Shown piece after piece: positions 25,210-36,672 of a stretch of 37,044 bases of DNA (its first letter is position 1; each line of letters begins with the position of its first letter). The position numbers and the translations under genes are program-made. Source of the DNA: a virus; IMG/VR virus record IMGVR_UViG_3300031280_000007, positions 1 to 37,044 of that record; one strand, given 5' to 3'. Under the pieces are notes generated by a model that did not search any database, was not told the origin of the DNA, and saw nothing but the letters and a program-made list of their open reading frames with translations.

Positions 25210-25689
25210 ATGCACACACTATATCACACAAGTCCGACAAAAATCGAAGAAATAAAATATCTAGGTAATGACATTTTTAATACCACTCTTTTTTTCAGCG
25301 ACAAAATCTACACAATGACAGCAGCTGACTATCATGTGTACAGCATCGATATTGCTGACGATGAGATACTAAATATTGATCAGTTACATGAGTACTATCA
25401 CACTCAAGCTTACAAAGACGCGATTAATGAGTTAATGGAAGCTTGCAATATTGATGCAGACGACGCAGAAGAATTTTTAGAAGATGAAAAAAGCGTAGAC
25501 TGGGTTTGCGATTTAGAAACTGAAGAAAGCGGTAGCGAAGCTGGCTGGTTAGTACAACGTGTACAATCAGAATTAGCGCGTAAGTTAGGATTTAGAGCTT
25601 GCAAAAGTAGAGATGAGCAAGGAGTTGTGTACATGATCGACATGTACAAGAGAGAAAACGAATTAATATTATTAAATGAAGTAGCTTAA
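25210..25689 (+). CDS. AcrIF11-like ADP-ribosyltransferase candidate
   Basis: 159 residues. The N-terminus LYHTSPTKIEEI matches the start of AcrIF11 (as I recall it) at about half the positions. The C-terminal block GWLVQRVQSELARKLGF, then a DEQG turn and VVYM, parallels the GW.LQR...LA.RLGY, DEHG and TTWL of AcrIF11. The middle has LFFSDKIYTMTAADYHVYSI, a typical ADP-ribosyltransferase beta strand with Ser. AcrIF11 modifies Cas8f of type I-F CRISPR complexes. The fold is the firmer claim; the target is open. It follows the first early gene and shares its promoter. Confidence 0.6.
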   Translation: MHTLYHTSPTKIEEIKYLGNDIFNTTLFFSDKIYTMTAADYHVYSIDIADDEILNIDQLHEYYHTQAYKDAINELMEACNIDADDAEEFLEDEKSVDWVCDLETEESGSEAGWLVQRVQSELARKLGFRACKSRDEQGVVYMIDMYKRENELILLNEVA

Positions 25690-29719: not shown

Positions 29720-29956
29720 ATGGAACCAACTTTATCAAATGACTTTACCCCTTCCCCTTTTTTTGATTGGTACGACTGGGAGCATCACGAAGACGATTGG
29801 ATACACGTTGAAGATGACCTTGATTATCCGTTAGACGCCTTCCAGCTCGCCATTGGTTTTGACGAAGCGGATAGCTCCGAGATTGGCTTTTATGCCAGTG
29901 TTTGGATTGAAGAAAATTATAAAAATTTAAAATTAGATGAATGCCAAATACGCTGA
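29720..29956 (+). CDS. Highly acidic small protein, DNA-mimic candidate
   Basis: 78 residues, driven directly by P4, with GAGG ten bases before the ATG. About a third of residues are Asp or Glu, with many Trp, Tyr and Phe (FFDWYDWEHHEDDWIHVEDD). That composition is typical of DNA-mimic proteins such as anti-restriction factors, though acidity alone does not prove it. The first unit of the big GAGAG cluster begins at its stop codon. Confidence 0.62.
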   Translation: MEPTLSNDFTPSPFFDWYDWEHHEDDWIHVEDDLDYPLDAFQLAIGFDEADSSEIGFYASVWIEENYKNLKLDECQIR

Positions 29957-30355
29957 GAGCGCCAAAGATATAGAGAGTAAAGCCATCTGTAGAGAGAGAG
30001 CCGGATACGATGAGAGAAAAAACCTGTCAACCTGAGAGAACCAAGAAAAACGAGAGAAAAAACCTGTCAACCTGAGAGAACCAAGAAAAACGAGAGCAAA
30101 AACCTGTCAACCTGAGAGAACCAAGAAAAACGAGAGCAAAAACCTCTCAACCTGAGAGAACCAAGAAAAACGAGAGCAAAAACCTCTCAACCTGAGAGAA
30201 CCAAAAGAGATGAGAGTTAAAACCTATAAAATAGAGAGTACCGTAGGAATTGAGAGGGATTAAACCTATAGAATGGAGAGCGCCTAGACAAAAGAGAGTT
30301 TAAAATAACGAATAATGAAAACCTATAAAATAGAGAGTACCGTCAAGACCGAGAG
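29955..30355 (+). repeat. GAGAG-NRCC-N9-GAGAG repeat, cluster 2 (10 units)
   Basis: Ten perfect units start at 29955, 29994, 30034, 30074, 30114, 30154, 30194, 30234, 30276 and 30333. Within every unit the two GAGAG boxes are 18 bases apart. Four of the units (30034-30154) sit in a 40-bp tandem repeat (GAGAGAACCAAGAAAAAC, then GAGAG and a CAACCT end). The NRCC box is AACC, TACC, CGCC or AGCC. All units are in plus orientation. The cluster ends 26 bases before the Transposase_20-like gene. It contains no frame. Confidence 0.92.
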
Positions 30356-30381
30356 AACAATTTCAAAAAAGAGGAAAAACC

Positions 30382-31494
30382 ATGATCGAAGAAAACACAT
30401 TTATTGAGAAAATAAGCAATGAAGCCATTCAGGGACTGCAAAGCGAAGAAATTAGACTCGTCGTCGATAATTATTACCGCATGCAACATCATCGCCTACG
30501 TCTTGAAGCACAAATGCGAGCGCTATCTCCTTCTTTCAAAGAACAATTAAAAATGATGGAGAAAAACCCTGAGTTAAAAGAATGCCCCCCGCTTGCCTTA
30601 ACGCTTTTATCCAAGACTTCCCACGTTTTTAAACGTGAGGAGAAATTTACCGCCAATATTTTATCGCGTTGGGTAAAATCTCATCCGAGGGCGAAAATTT
30701 TATGCGAAGCTGTCGGAGTGGGGCATATTCTAGCGGCTGGCTTAGTAGCGCACGTTAATTGGTCAATGGTTTGTACAGCTGGTAAGTTATGGTCATTTTG
30801 TGGTTTAAACCCTGAAAGCGAATGGAAGAAAGGCGAAAAACGCCCGTGGAACGCCCATCTCAAACAGCTTTGTTTTTTAATCGGTGAAAGTTTTGTCAAA
30901 CAAAAAAATCGAGAAAATGACGTCTATGGCAAAATTTATCAAAAGCGCAAGGACTGGGAAAACGCACGCAATGAAGCTTTAACCGCCAGTTATCCTGAAG
31001 CGCGACCCTTATTAGCCACGCTGAAAGAAACACAAGACGCTGTGAAAAGAGAAAAAATATATAAAGAACTTAAAACCAAATACGGCTTTATGCGCCCGGC
31101 GCATATTCATGCCCGCGCCAAACGATTTGCCGTTAAGCTTTATTTAGCGGATTGCGTTCACTTTTTGGCCGATGAAGGATTGCTTGAAAATTTACCCAAT
31201 CCATTTTACCCCATGACGGGGAAAATGTACCTCGATAAAAATGTAGACACCTTCGAATTAAGACATTTTAATGGGGAAGAGCAGGTCTCTACCACGCGCG
31301 GATGGCAATCGCTTGTGGTATGGGCAACTGAGATTTTTAAGACGAAAAAAACCGTGTTCTCTGAGAGTACCGTAAAAAAGGAGAGAAATGCCAACGAAAT
31401 GGAGAGTACCGTACTGAGGGAGAGAAAATCCAAAAAAGAAACAACGAATAAGAAAAACCGATTTAAAAATAAACGTTTGGCAAAACGACAATAA
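30382..31494 (+). CDS. IS110-type Transposase_20-like protein without the DEDD domain
   Basis: 370 residues. Residues 108-170 read like the C-terminal domain of IS110-family transposases: a helix-hairpin-helix CEAVGVGHILAAGLVAHV, then KLWSFCGLNPESEWKKGEK and a LKQLCFLIGES helix, then YGKIYQKRK and a HIHARAKRFAVKLYLA end. IS110 enzymes have an N-terminal RuvC-like DEDD domain. Here the first ~100 residues are helical and show no such motifs. A Ser in PESE may stand for the catalytic Ser. The last ~50 residues are encoded by GAGAG repeat units. Flanked on both sides by repeat clusters. Confidence 0.65.
   Translation: MIEENTFIEKISNEAIQGLQSEEIRLVVDNYYRMQHHRLRLEAQMRALSPSFKEQLKMMEKNPELKECPPLALTLLSKTSHVFKREEKFTANILSRWVKSHPRAKILCEAVGVGHILAAGLVAHVNWSMVCTAGKLWSFCGLNPESEWKKGEKRPWNAHLKQLCFLIGESFVKQKNRENDVYGKIYQKRKDWENARNEALTASYPEARPLLATLKETQDAVKREKIYKELKTKYGFMRPAHIHARAKRFAVKLYLADCVHFLADEGLLENLPNPFYPMTGKMYLDKNVDTFELRHFNGEEQVSTTRGWQSLVVWATEIFKTKKTVFSESTVKKERNANEMESTVLRERKSKKETTNKKNRFKNKRLAKRQ
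31363..31424 (+). repeat. GAGAG repeat, cluster 3a, inside the gene end (2 units)
   Basis: Perfect units at 31363 (GAGAG-TACC to 31385) and 31402 (GAGAG-TACC to 31424) lie within the C-terminal coding part of the Transposase_20-like gene. The repeated ESTVKKER / ESTVLRER peptide is a direct consequence. The 18-bp step within units is kept although the codons are used for protein. Confidence 0.85.
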
Positions 31495-31505
31495 CCACAT
31501 ACTCA

Positions 31506-31633
31506 GAGAGTACCGTAAAAATTGAGAGAAATAACGTTTATTACACCTCATATAAATGAGAGCGCCTTAACAAGAGAGAGAATAATCATTAACAATTAAC
31601 CGTAAAAATTGAGAGAACCTTGAAAAAAGAGAA
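31506..31633 (+). repeat. GAGAG repeat, cluster 3b (2 perfect and 2 partial units)
   Basis: Perfect units start at 31506 (TACC) and 31558 (CGCC). A partial unit at 31593 keeps AACC and the second GAGAG at 31611. A further GAGAG-AACC at 31611 is followed 18 bases later by GAGAA (31629). The stretch has no gene and ends just before the next gene's ribosome site. Confidence 0.82.
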
Positions 31634-32014: not shown

Positions 32015-32043
32015 TTGACATTTTGATAGAAAGTTTTTATTAT
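32015..32043 (+). promoter_or_regulatory. Promoter for csrA and the recombination genes
   Basis: TTGACA (32015-32020) and TATTAT (32038-32043), 17 bases apart, with the csrA ATG 18 bases beyond the -10. It would also serve the coupled genes to RecT. It lacks the ATTACC box of P1-P4. Confidence 0.65.
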
Positions 32044-32061: not shown

Positions 32062-32250
32062 ATGCTTGTATTGACACGCAAACCACATGAAAACGTGATT
32101 ATCACCACCCCTGACGAAACTATTACCGTGAGAGTATTGCGCATTGAAAAAGGAACGGTACGCCTTGGCATTGACGCCCCTCCGGAAGTGATCATTGATC
32201 GTGAAGAAATTACCAAAAAGAAAGAAATTGCCAATCAATTTAATAGGTGA
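32062..32250 (+). CDS. csrA: CsrA-type post-transcriptional regulator
   Basis: 62 residues, the size of host CsrA/RsmA. It begins MLVLTRK, continues with VRVLRIEKGTVRLGIDAP and ends the core with DREEI, the complete family signature. The RNA-contacting Arg6 and the second Arg (Arg47 here, Arg44 in E. coli) are both present. CsrA binds GGA in loops of messenger leaders and represses or stabilises them. GAGGAG lies nine bases before the ATG. It leads the group with exonuclease and RecT. The GGA-containing repeated leaders at 24920 and 25760 are possible targets. Confidence 0.93.
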   Translation: MLVLTRKPHENVIITTPDETITVRVLRIEKGTVRLGIDAPPEVIIDREEITKKKEIANQFNR

Positions 32251-32257
32251 AAATAAA

Positions 32258-32494
32258 ATGAATACTAGAGAATTATATGATTTACGCGCAACGCTTATTG
32301 AAGCGCAAGAAGACCAAATAAAAATCACTAATTTAATGAGGCATTTTTCTACTTTTTTAGAGAGTATGATAGCAATAAGCACAGATAAATTAGAGACCAT
32401 TCGAGATACACTTCGAACACAAGAAGTCGAATTGACCCAACGAATGAAAAAGATTGAGTGGGAAAGGGATAGGGAGGAGGTTGAAAAAGAATGA
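32258..32494 (+). CDS. Small coiled-coil protein
   Basis: 78 residues from ATG 32258 (AGGTGA upstream); a frame opening at 32195 inside csrA is rejected as start. All-helical and charged, with a coiled coil from about residue 40 to the end (KLETIRDTLRTQEVELTQRM). Its stop overlaps the exonuclease start by 4 bases, so they are coupled. Function unknown. Confidence 0.65.
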   Translation: MNTRELYDLRATLIEAQEDQIKITNLMRHFSTFLESMIAISTDKLETIRDTLRTQEVELTQRMKKIEWERDREEVEKE

Positions 32495-33393
32495 TTGAAG
32501 ATAGATCAATCGGCCTTGGGGGCTCAGACGCCGCCGCTGCATTAGGCTTTGATAAATATTGTTCCCCTTATCAGCTATGGCTTGAGAAAACAGGACGCGC
32601 TGACCCCAAATCTACAGGATTAGCCGCAGAAGTGGGTACTTATTTAGAGCCGTTTGTAGCGCAGAAATATGAACAAATTAAAAATGTAAAAGTGAGAACC
32701 GCTGAAGGCACCCTTTATCATCCCAAATATTCTTTTTTATACGCCCACCTTGATCGACTTGTAAAAACAAGCGAGGAGTTAGCCGATGACATTATCATTG
32801 AATGCAAAACAAGCGGCGCTTTTCGACAATATGAATGGGGAGAAGAAGACACGGGTAAATTGCCACCCCCTTATCTTTTACAAGTATATTATTATTTAGC
32901 ATTAACTAATTTTAAACAGGCAGATGTGGCCGTCTTGATTGGCAATCATGACTTTAAAATTTATCGCATTCCACCCAACCAAGAATTGCAACAAACCATT
33001 ATTGATGGGATGGTAAATTTTTGGGAGGAATATGTCCTCAAAGATATTGCGCCTTCCCCAAAAACTTGGTTTGATTTAAAGCACCGCTACCAAGATATTA
33101 AAAAAAATTTGCGAGAAGCAAGCGCGGGCGAAGTAGAGATGATTAAAGAGTACAATTCACTTAATACGGCTATTAAAAAACAACAAAAACATATCGATCA
33201 TATTAAATGGAAATTATGCAATGGGATTGGCGAAAATAGCGGCCTGTCAACTGCCGATGGAAAAACCCTTGTCACCTGGAAAGAAATGAAAATCAAAGCT
33301 CCCACTTGTCCGCATTGCCACCTACCGTTATACGATAAACCAGAACTACCACAACGGCGGTTTTGGGTTTGTAAAGCAGCGAAGGGATTATAA
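32491..33393 (+). CDS. YqaJ-type viral recombinase exonuclease
   Basis: 300 residues. The N-terminus has IGLGGSDAAAALGF (residues 7-20), then YLEPF with Glu53, AHLDR with Asp88, IIIECKTSG with Glu104 and Lys106, and YLLQVYYYL with Gln131. This is the lambda-exonuclease-like order for a 5'-3' exonuclease that loads an annealing protein. The last 30 residues add a CPHC and a further Cys, a partial zinc ribbon. The gene lies two genes from RecT, completing a two-component recombination pair. A 29-bp piece of it (33137-33165) recurs at 36522-36550. Confidence 0.88.
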   Translation: MIEDRSIGLGGSDAAAALGFDKYCSPYQLWLEKTGRADPKSTGLAAEVGTYLEPFVAQKYEQIKNVKVRTAEGTLYHPKYSFLYAHLDRLVKTSEELADDIIIECKTSGAFRQYEWGEEDTGKLPPPYLLQVYYYLALTNFKQADVAVLIGNHDFKIYRIPPNQELQQTIIDGMVNFWEEYVLKDIAPSPKTWFDLKHRYQDIKKNLREASAGEVEMIKEYNSLNTAIKKQQKHIDHIKWKLCNGIGENSGLSTADGKTLVTWKEMKIKAPTCPHCHLPLYDKPELPQRRFWVCKAAKGL

Positions 33394-33394
33394 A

Positions 33395-33988
33395 GTGAAT
33401 AAGAAAATGGTAAAAATGAGTGAGGAGGTAAGAAGAGTGAAAGAGAAAGATAAAAAGAAGGCCAATGACTCAAAGTTTGTATACGTAAAAAGTAAAGATG
33501 AAACGCTAGATGATCTGCCCCCGGATATCAAACGTGGTCAGCAATTGAGAGAATTTATCAAAGAAACTTGTGACAAAGAAATAGGCTTTGTTGAATATAT
33601 GTTAGATAAGTACGCTATTTTTGCGGATGAGCTGACTGAGCAGCAAAAAGTAGTTGAGTTACTAAATTGCAGTAAAGAAGAGTTACAAATACGCGCTGAA
33701 ATGAAACAACAGGGGGCTTCCGAGGCTTTTGACTCTAAAAATTTTAAGGATAATGCAAAGGAGACAGCATATGATAAATTAATAGCGCGAGTTTCCTCGC
33801 TTGATGCAATTTATAAGATTGATAATTTAATGTGCGCTGCTAATGCCGCACAAAACTATCTTTCTAATTTGAAAACAGACCCTGGGATGCCATTCTCTAA
33901 CCGATTTTTGCATGTTAGTTTGTTGTTATCAGCTCTGACTGACGCACGTCTAGTTATGCAGCAACTACAAAACGGAGAAAAGCAATGA
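33395..33988 (+). CDS. Hypothetical protein between exonuclease and RecT
   Basis: 197 residues from GTG 33395 (AAGGG eight bases upstream); ATG 33407 or 33416 are alternatives with no ribosome site of their own. The N-terminus is very basic (VRRVKEKDKKKAND), the rest is acidic and helical. It overlaps the RecT region and so belongs to the recombination operon, perhaps as a single-strand binding or accessory partner. No motif proves that. Confidence 0.62.
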   Translation: MNKKMVKMSEEVRRVKEKDKKKANDSKFVYVKSKDETLDDLPPDIKRGQQLREFIKETCDKEIGFVEYMLDKYAIFADELTEQQKVVELLNCSKEELQIRAEMKQQGASEAFDSKNFKDNAKETAYDKLIARVSSLDAIYKIDNLMCAANAAQNYLSNLKTDPGMPFSNRFLHVSLLLSALTDARLVMQQLQNGEKQ

Positions 33989-34005
33989 AAAGAGGAGAAG
34001 AAAAA

Positions 34006-34872
34006 ATGAGCACTGACTTATCATCATTTAGAGAGACCTCATTTGGTAAAATGCCAACCACCATGCGCGATGCGTGGACCCTAGCTACCATGCTTGCAAA
34101 AAGCTCGCTGGTACCTAAGGCTTATATTGGGAAGCCACATGATATTTTTGTAGCGCTCGGAATGGGCGTTGAACTGGAGATACATAAACCACTCCAAACC
34201 TTGCGATCTATTAATGTCATTAATGGGATGCCAACCGTGTGGGGAGATATGCTCCTGGCCTTAGCTATGCGCCATCCTGATTTTGAGGACATTGAAGAAA
34301 AAATTGATGGCGACGGAGACCAGCGCACCGCAACATGTATCATTAAGCGTAAAAATAGAACCCCAGTAGTAAGAACATTTAGCATTGCCGAAGCAAAGCG
34401 AGCCGGTTTATTATCACGTAATGGAGCGTGGCAATCTTACCCGGATCGAATGCAACTTAGGCGAGCGCGCGGTTTTGCCGTACGGGACAGCTTCCCAGAA
34501 GTAACGTGTGGGATAGGAATTGTAGAAGAAGTAAACGATTATGCCTTTGAAGAAGAACGCCCCTCATTAAACATCTCGGAAGATAACGGCCATCAAGGCC
34601 AAGCCCAACAGCTTTTGAATGCTTTAAAAACCAAACACACGCCGGAAGTAGATATTTTTTCCACCAAAGAGAAAATCTTTGAAGAACCATCTCACCCTGA
34701 AGAGGAAGCCGCCAAGCAGGAGGATATAAATACGGAACAAATGATTGATGAAATCAAAATGTCCCAGCGGTATAAATCCGAAGACAACATTAATTTAGAG
34801 GAAATTGACGATGATTTTAAAGACTTTCCAGCGCTCGCTGAAGAAATGGCTGAAGAGCAATCATCCTTGTAA
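34006..34872 (+). CDS. recT: RecT-family single-strand annealing protein
   Basis: 288 residues from ATG 34006, chosen over 33985 because AGAGGAG lies eight bases upstream. The core has LAKSSLVPKAYIGKPHDIF, MGVELEIHKPLQTLRSINVI, MPTVWGDMLLALA, FSIAEAKRAGL and MQLRRARGFAVRDSFPEV, the usual RecT order. The C-terminal ~100 residues are acidic, as in proteins that bind SSB-like partners. RecT-type proteins anneal single strands resected by the exonuclease, giving recombination and possibly recombination-dependent replication. Confidence 0.88.
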   Translation: MSTDLSSFRETSFGKMPTTMRDAWTLATMLAKSSLVPKAYIGKPHDIFVALGMGVELEIHKPLQTLRSINVINGMPTVWGDMLLALAMRHPDFEDIEEKIDGDGDQRTATCIIKRKNRTPVVRTFSIAEAKRAGLLSRNGAWQSYPDRMQLRRARGFAVRDSFPEVTCGIGIVEEVNDYAFEEERPSLNISEDNGHQGQAQQLLNALKTKHTPEVDIFSTKEKIFEEPSHPEEEAAKQEDINTEQMIDEIKMSQRYKSEDNINLEEIDDDFKDFPALAEEMAEEQSSL

Positions 34873-36279: not shown

Positions 36280-36672
36280 TAAATACCTTGCTACCTGAGA
36301 GAGCCAGATGAGAAAAGAGATAATAACCACATTAAGCGAGAGAACCGTAACCGGTGAGAGAATAATAACCACTTCTATTGAGAGAACCGGAGCCATCGAG
36401 AGAACCGTAACCGGTGAGAGAATAATAGCCACATCTATCGAGAGAACCGTAGCCAGCGAGAGAATAACAAGTAATAATAACCATTTATAGAGAGAGAGCC
36501 ACATTTATAGAGAGAGAGCTAAGATGATTAAAGAGTACAATTCACTTAATGCGGTATGAGGATTGAGAGATCCTAAAAAATAAAGTAAAACCAGAGTTAG
36601 AGAGAGTACCTCAATATTGGAGAGAAACCATATAAAAACCATCCATAAAGAGAGAACCAGAAGGTAAGAGAG
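36245..36672 (+). repeat. GAGAG-NRCC-N9-GAGAG repeat, cluster 4 (7 perfect, 2 degenerate units)
   Basis: Perfect units start at 36338, 36380, 36398, 36440, 36492, 36602 and 36650. Degenerate ones at 36245 and 36297 keep GAGAG-NRCC but end in AAGAG, still 18 bases on. The last unit (36650-36672) ends immediately before the ATG at 36673. CCGTAACCGGT appears twice as the filler. A 29-bp copy of exonuclease-gene sequence (36522-36550) lies between units, with an 11-codon frame ATG to TGA. The 60-codon plus frame here is repeat-coded and not supported as a gene. Confidence 0.9.

Follow-up and report, generated by a model that had tools for sequence, protein, structure and literature searches.

What does a csrA-family gene do at the head of a phage recombination operon, and is its product a working regulator of long standing in phages or a host gene recently picked up? 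We addressed this question for the csrA gene of IMG/VR virus record IMGVR_UViG_3300031280_000007, of which positions 1 to 37,044 were analysed; this whole stretch of 37,044 nucleotides is referred to here as the window. The gene sits in a phage, as indicated by matches to portal, terminase and major head proteins and by the virus record itself. The P22-like portal, terminase and major head protein genes lie on the strand opposite to the csrA operon. Portal matches in the phage collection are at most 25% identical, a search of plasmids with the terminase returned one distant match, and no relatives of the portal, the exonuclease or the Tas protein were found in viral_contigs.

As a kind, phage csrA genes have been described and tested before, and the present gene adds a strongly diverged member. 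Sobrero and Valverde (2020) listed csrA in 30 phages (1.2%; PMC7366521), and Campa et al. (2021), who searched GenBank and IMG/VR, found RsmA genes in phages; RsmA represses several CRISPR-Cas systems, and phage RsmA has been proposed to suppress CRISPR-Cas (PMC8450108). Deletion of bci in AUS531phi alters infection and the expression of host quorum-sensing genes (PMC7546807), knock-down of the csrA gene gp28 in PTXU04 leads to smaller plaques (PMC11879866), and a single peptide of the phage JC1 CsrA has been seen in virions (PMC9144972). The sequence-only reading of the window had regarded phage csrA genes as uncommon, a view contradicted by this literature and by our counts: 47 records in the phage collection match csrA, two of them Acinetobacter contigs and one a contig of a Salmonella assembly, and in IMG/VR a single peptide pattern gave at least 370 confirmed csrA-bearing contigs. 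One of the Acinetobacter records, CAKLQH020000034.1 ('Acinetobacter phage MD-2021a'), carries alaS, an aspartokinase gene, csrA and rnhB, and seems to be a bacterial chromosomal segment mislabelled as phage, because alaS, the aspartokinase gene and csrA are neighbours in chromosomal order.

The translation of the window gene is MLVLTRKPHENVIITTPDETITVRVLRIEKGTVRLGIDAPPEVIIDREEITKKKEIANQFNR. It scores 65.6 bits (3.8e-18) against Pfam CsrA PF02599, above the cut-off of 27, and matches the PHROG 9500 'CsrA-like regulator' profile at 5.7e-14, which bears out the sequence-only description of a full-length CsrA. By its profile scores the 62-residue protein is a CsrA family member but is not called an equivalog of cellular CsrA, because the NCBIfam equivalog model TIGR00202 gives 52.5 bits, below its cut-off of 70.1. 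The AlphaFold2 monomer (pLDDT 95.1) has the five-strand subunit and C-terminal helix that define the CsrA fold. In a Foldseek search of the PDB, the 13 best matches are all CsrA, RsmA or RsmE chains (TM 0.51-0.82 on the query), with a best E value of only 1.3e-3 because the protein is short; five viral models have E values of 0.001 or less, and the annotation of four of these reads phage CsrA or carbon storage regulator. Three residues are inserted between strands one and two when the protein is compared with the Pfam consensus. This insertion was considered as a phage-only marker and rejected, since it also occurs in 3 of 63 cellular matches of one phylum, as judged by match length and with a phage sample biased towards the query.

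The residues that contact RNA in RsmE and CsrA structures, which we take to correspond to L4, T5, R6 and R47 (R44 in E. coli), are all kept when the phage protein is aligned with cellular CsrA. Invariant positions in an alignment of 30 phage CsrAs are M1, L2, R6, V33, G36, A39, P40, R47 and E49, and L4 is nearly so; the two RNA-binding arginines pointed out in the sequence-only reading are among them. Contact positions that depart from E. coli are R7 (K in the phage protein), K38 (P), V42 (I) and H43 (D), and because of such departures, namely K38 to P, H43 to D and R7 to K, the RNA specificity may differ. Compared with cellular CsrA/RsmA (E. coli, Pseudomonas, Bacillus), the phage protein shares the fold, as predicted here, and the RNA-contact arginines, but it is only roughly 40% identical, has the loop insertion and the H43 to D change, and is encoded in a phage operon.

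As far as the sequence tells, csrA is the first gene of a recombination operon, because the genes are tightly spaced, a promoter-like site lies upstream and the plus strand of the csrA-operon stretch gave no terminator-like site. The near-contiguous genes run in the order csrA, 78-residue ORF, exonuclease, 197-residue ORF and RecT-like gene, with gaps of a few bases or overlaps, as the sequence-only reading had proposed in placing csrA at the operon head. The promoter-like site (TTGACA-17-TATTAT) is 18 nt upstream of the csrA ATG, in a region whose total of such sites is not above that of shuffles.

Features of the csrA neighbourhood in the window, and the csrA-nuclease row of a Piscirickettsia salmonis plasmid
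Feature	Record	Position	Strand	Evidence or remark
AcrIF11-family anti-CRISPR ADP-ribosyltransferase	window	25210-25689	+	NCBIfam NF052490, 127.7 bits (cut-off 50)
Arrays of ~40-nt units with GAGAG-type repeats	window	about 29950-30360, 31360-31620, 36300-36660	+	
TIGR-Tas RNA-guided protein	window	30382-31494	+	NCBIfam NF052498, 151 bits (cut-off 100)
Sigma-70-like promoter, putative	window	32015-32043	+	11/12; best-scoring site of the region
csrA-family gene	window	32062-32250	+	62 aa; Pfam PF02599, PHROG 9500, AlphaFold2 and Foldseek
78-aa ORF	window	32258-32494	+	translation; no family match in profile searches (PHROG, NCBIfam)
YqaJ/RecE-like recombination exonuclease, 300 aa	window	32491-33393	+	PF09588, 106.7 bits; phrog_434, 3e-66
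197-aa operon ORF	window	33395-33988	+	no family match (Pfam, PHROG, NCBIfam)
RecT-like single-strand annealing protein, 295 aa	window	33985-34872	+	phrog_561, 1.8e-38; PF03837, 15.9 bits (under the family cut-off)
PD-(D/E)XK nuclease-like gene, hypothetical gene, csrA in a row	NZ_CP039232.1	10399-12177		Piscirickettsia salmonis plasmid

The AcrIF11-family gene is close to where the rightward early region begins. The TIGR-Tas gene, which PHROGs label a transposase, is directly upstream of the csrA operon. A link between csrA and Tas was considered and dropped: Tas matches are absent from the other 73 csrA-bearing records, and because of this the neighbourhood is particular to the present phage. 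The GAGAG-type arrays resemble TIGR guide arrays; they flank the Tas gene and reappear 5 kb on. One of them partly overlaps the end of the Tas ORF, and several units (30012-30225) are near-identical, which is unusual for variable spacers.

Recent passive capture of a host gene, named in the sequence-only reading as the outcome that would count against it, is not what the searches returned. The closest relative found for the phage CsrA is about 58% identical and comes from viral contigs. The best bacterial or archaeal match is 49% identical (genome_contigs, 84,980 species genomes), in a search with six exact 8-residue patterns that finds close relatives only, and the best plasmid match, which is also the best non-viral protein match, is 50% identical (Piscirickettsia salmonis plasmid). 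No near-identical bacterial csrA was found in the species genomes by these patterns or in plasmids. With its closest relatives at about 58% identity in viruses and about 50% outside them, the phage CsrA is, on these identities, not a recent passive capture. A CsrA phylogeny, which the sequence-only reading had proposed as a check, agrees in part: among the 105 CsrAs of the tree, those of phages cluster, with 7 changes of the phage label vs 29.8 when labels are shuffled, but few forks are resolved, the 62 columns being too few, and the cellular rows come mostly from one phylum. The window sequence pairs with one phage row, both on long branches. In the same tree, a phage CsrA (L055) groups with the Piscirickettsia plasmid CsrA with support of 100/100.

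The position of csrA beside recombination genes was surveyed in 74 csrA-bearing records, the window included, which were picked by protein similarity and not by context. Where a YqaJ gene is present, it shares its strand with csrA and is no more than 4.5 kb away in 16 of 18 records, again with the window included. When near-identical P. aeruginosa prophages are counted once, the figure is 14 of 16 vs 2.3 expected (P about 2e-11), and when the window is also left out it is 13 of 15 (P about 1e-10), under a null of random placement that ignores the clustering of early genes; because it does so, part of the excess is simply that csrA is an early gene. The related DUF3799 nuclease, where above cut-off, is near csrA in all four records, and RecT is near csrA in 15 of 18, a count made without the one record in which the contig ends divide the RecT match. 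Integrases, used as a control, are near csrA in 5 of 31 records vs 3.5 expected. The order varies, csrA being upstream or downstream of the exonuclease, and most csrA-bearing contigs, many of which are fragments, are without these recombination genes. A general link between carriage of csrA and of YqaJ (17/73 vs 1/30 control contigs, P = 0.02) is not claimed, because integrases differ as much (31/73 vs 5/30, P = 0.013); both excesses may reflect no more than a higher frequency of csrA in temperate phages. A partial literature search gave no publication that describes the association of csrA with recombination genes, which we do not claim to be unreported.

Several named systems resemble the present one to different degrees: (i) bci of P. 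aeruginosa AUS531phi and phi297-type phages also belongs to the early region, where it precedes a PD-(D/E)XK nuclease and RecT on the same strand, but its product has 123 residues with a long C-terminal extension and is about 47% identical to the present 62-residue protein, and bci is 1.6 kb from the nuclease, whereas the genes of the present csrA operon are directly coupled. (ii) Vibrio phage VvAW1 gp26 is beside exonuclease genes, and the loop between its strands one and two is extended, but it is 37.7% identical and overlaps a DEDD exonuclease gene instead of heading an operon. (iii) PTXU04 gp28, a CsrA homologue of a different phage, is comparable as a phage csrA with a plaque-size knock-down phenotype (PMC11879866). 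(iv) The Piscirickettsia salmonis plasmid csrA, 50% identical, is also near a PD-(D/E)XK nuclease-like gene, but it is on a plasmid with TrfA and follows the nuclease, from which a single gene separates it. The plasmid row is an instance of the csrA-nuclease association outside phages.

We consider it probable, with moderate confidence, that the gene encodes a functional, long-resident phage protein of the CsrA/RsmA family that acts early on host messages and is expressed from its own promoter. Placed first in the recombination operon, csrA would be expressed early; its product would fold as a CsrA dimer and bind GGA-bearing sites in mRNA leaders, and the translation or stability of host messages would thereby shift to the benefit of the phage in the early phase of infection. 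That a phage CsrA could rewire host messages, as suggested in the sequence-only reading, is plausible by analogy with bci and with the work of Campa et al. (2021). CRISPR-Cas mRNAs may be among these messages and would make a plausible and attractive target, because RsmA is a repressor of CRISPR-Cas in the hosts that have been studied and an AcrIF11-family gene is aboard.

It is unlikely, in our judgement, that the phage CsrA mainly controls its own operon through GGA sites over the ribosome-binding sites of the exonuclease, ORF197, RecT and the gene that follows, so as to delay or balance the translation of these genes. Such control would suit a csrA that is first in the operon and that recurs beside exonuclease or annealase genes in many unrelated phages and on the Piscirickettsia plasmid, and ANGGA is found near the start of the genes at 32491, 33395, 33985 and 34931 (6 in these four leaders vs 13 in the other 50). 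However, this count was made post hoc, ANGGA overlaps the ordinary Shine-Dalgarno sequence, and the variable order of csrA and exonuclease provides no fixed leader arrangement. CsrA-like motifs at the ribosome sites of recombination genes were also tried as a general rule in csrA-bearing phages and rejected, with ANGGA in 11 of 28 such leaders vs 79 of 269 others (P = 0.29). Self-regulation stays a rival because the recombination-gene leaders of related phages are no richer in ANGGA, and the sequence-only suggestion that CsrA times the phage's early genes keeps slight, post hoc support in the window but gains none of a general kind in related phages.

Two further explanations concern the neighbourhood itself. 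We think it quite unlikely that csrA is a recurrent part of mobile-element recombination modules, tuning the translation of recombination genes or needing to be co-produced with them; if this were true, unrelated phages and plasmids would have repeatedly placed csrA by exonuclease or annealase genes. A little more doubtful still is the moron explanation, by which csrA would be a host gene passively carried in the accessory space of an early operon, with no selected phage role. Accessory genes do collect in early operons and the order of csrA relative to the exonuclease is not fixed, but the RNA-contact residues have been kept despite about 50% divergence, the genome-pattern and plasmid searches gave no near copy, csrA is placed recurrently on the same strand near recombination genes, and other phage csrA genes give knock-down or deletion phenotypes (PTXU04 gp28, bci). 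An RNA-independent CsrA relative, such as a decoy in mixed dimers with host CsrA or a titrator of FliW or CesT, would fit the divergent C-terminal helix, the changed positions near the RNA face (D46, P41) and the presence of FliW- and CesT-bound CsrA chains among the top Foldseek matches, but it is highly improbable given that L4, T5, R6 and R47 are kept and that those matches reflect the shared fold and no partner.

Under the reading that we favour, of a long-resident regulator acting early on host messages, the gene belongs to a known but little understood route by which phages act on host mRNAs, and here it occurs together with an AcrIF11-family gene and a compact recombination operon. The survey points to a non-random placement of csrA genes in phages, within recombination modules, which would give a concrete and testable place to seek their targets.
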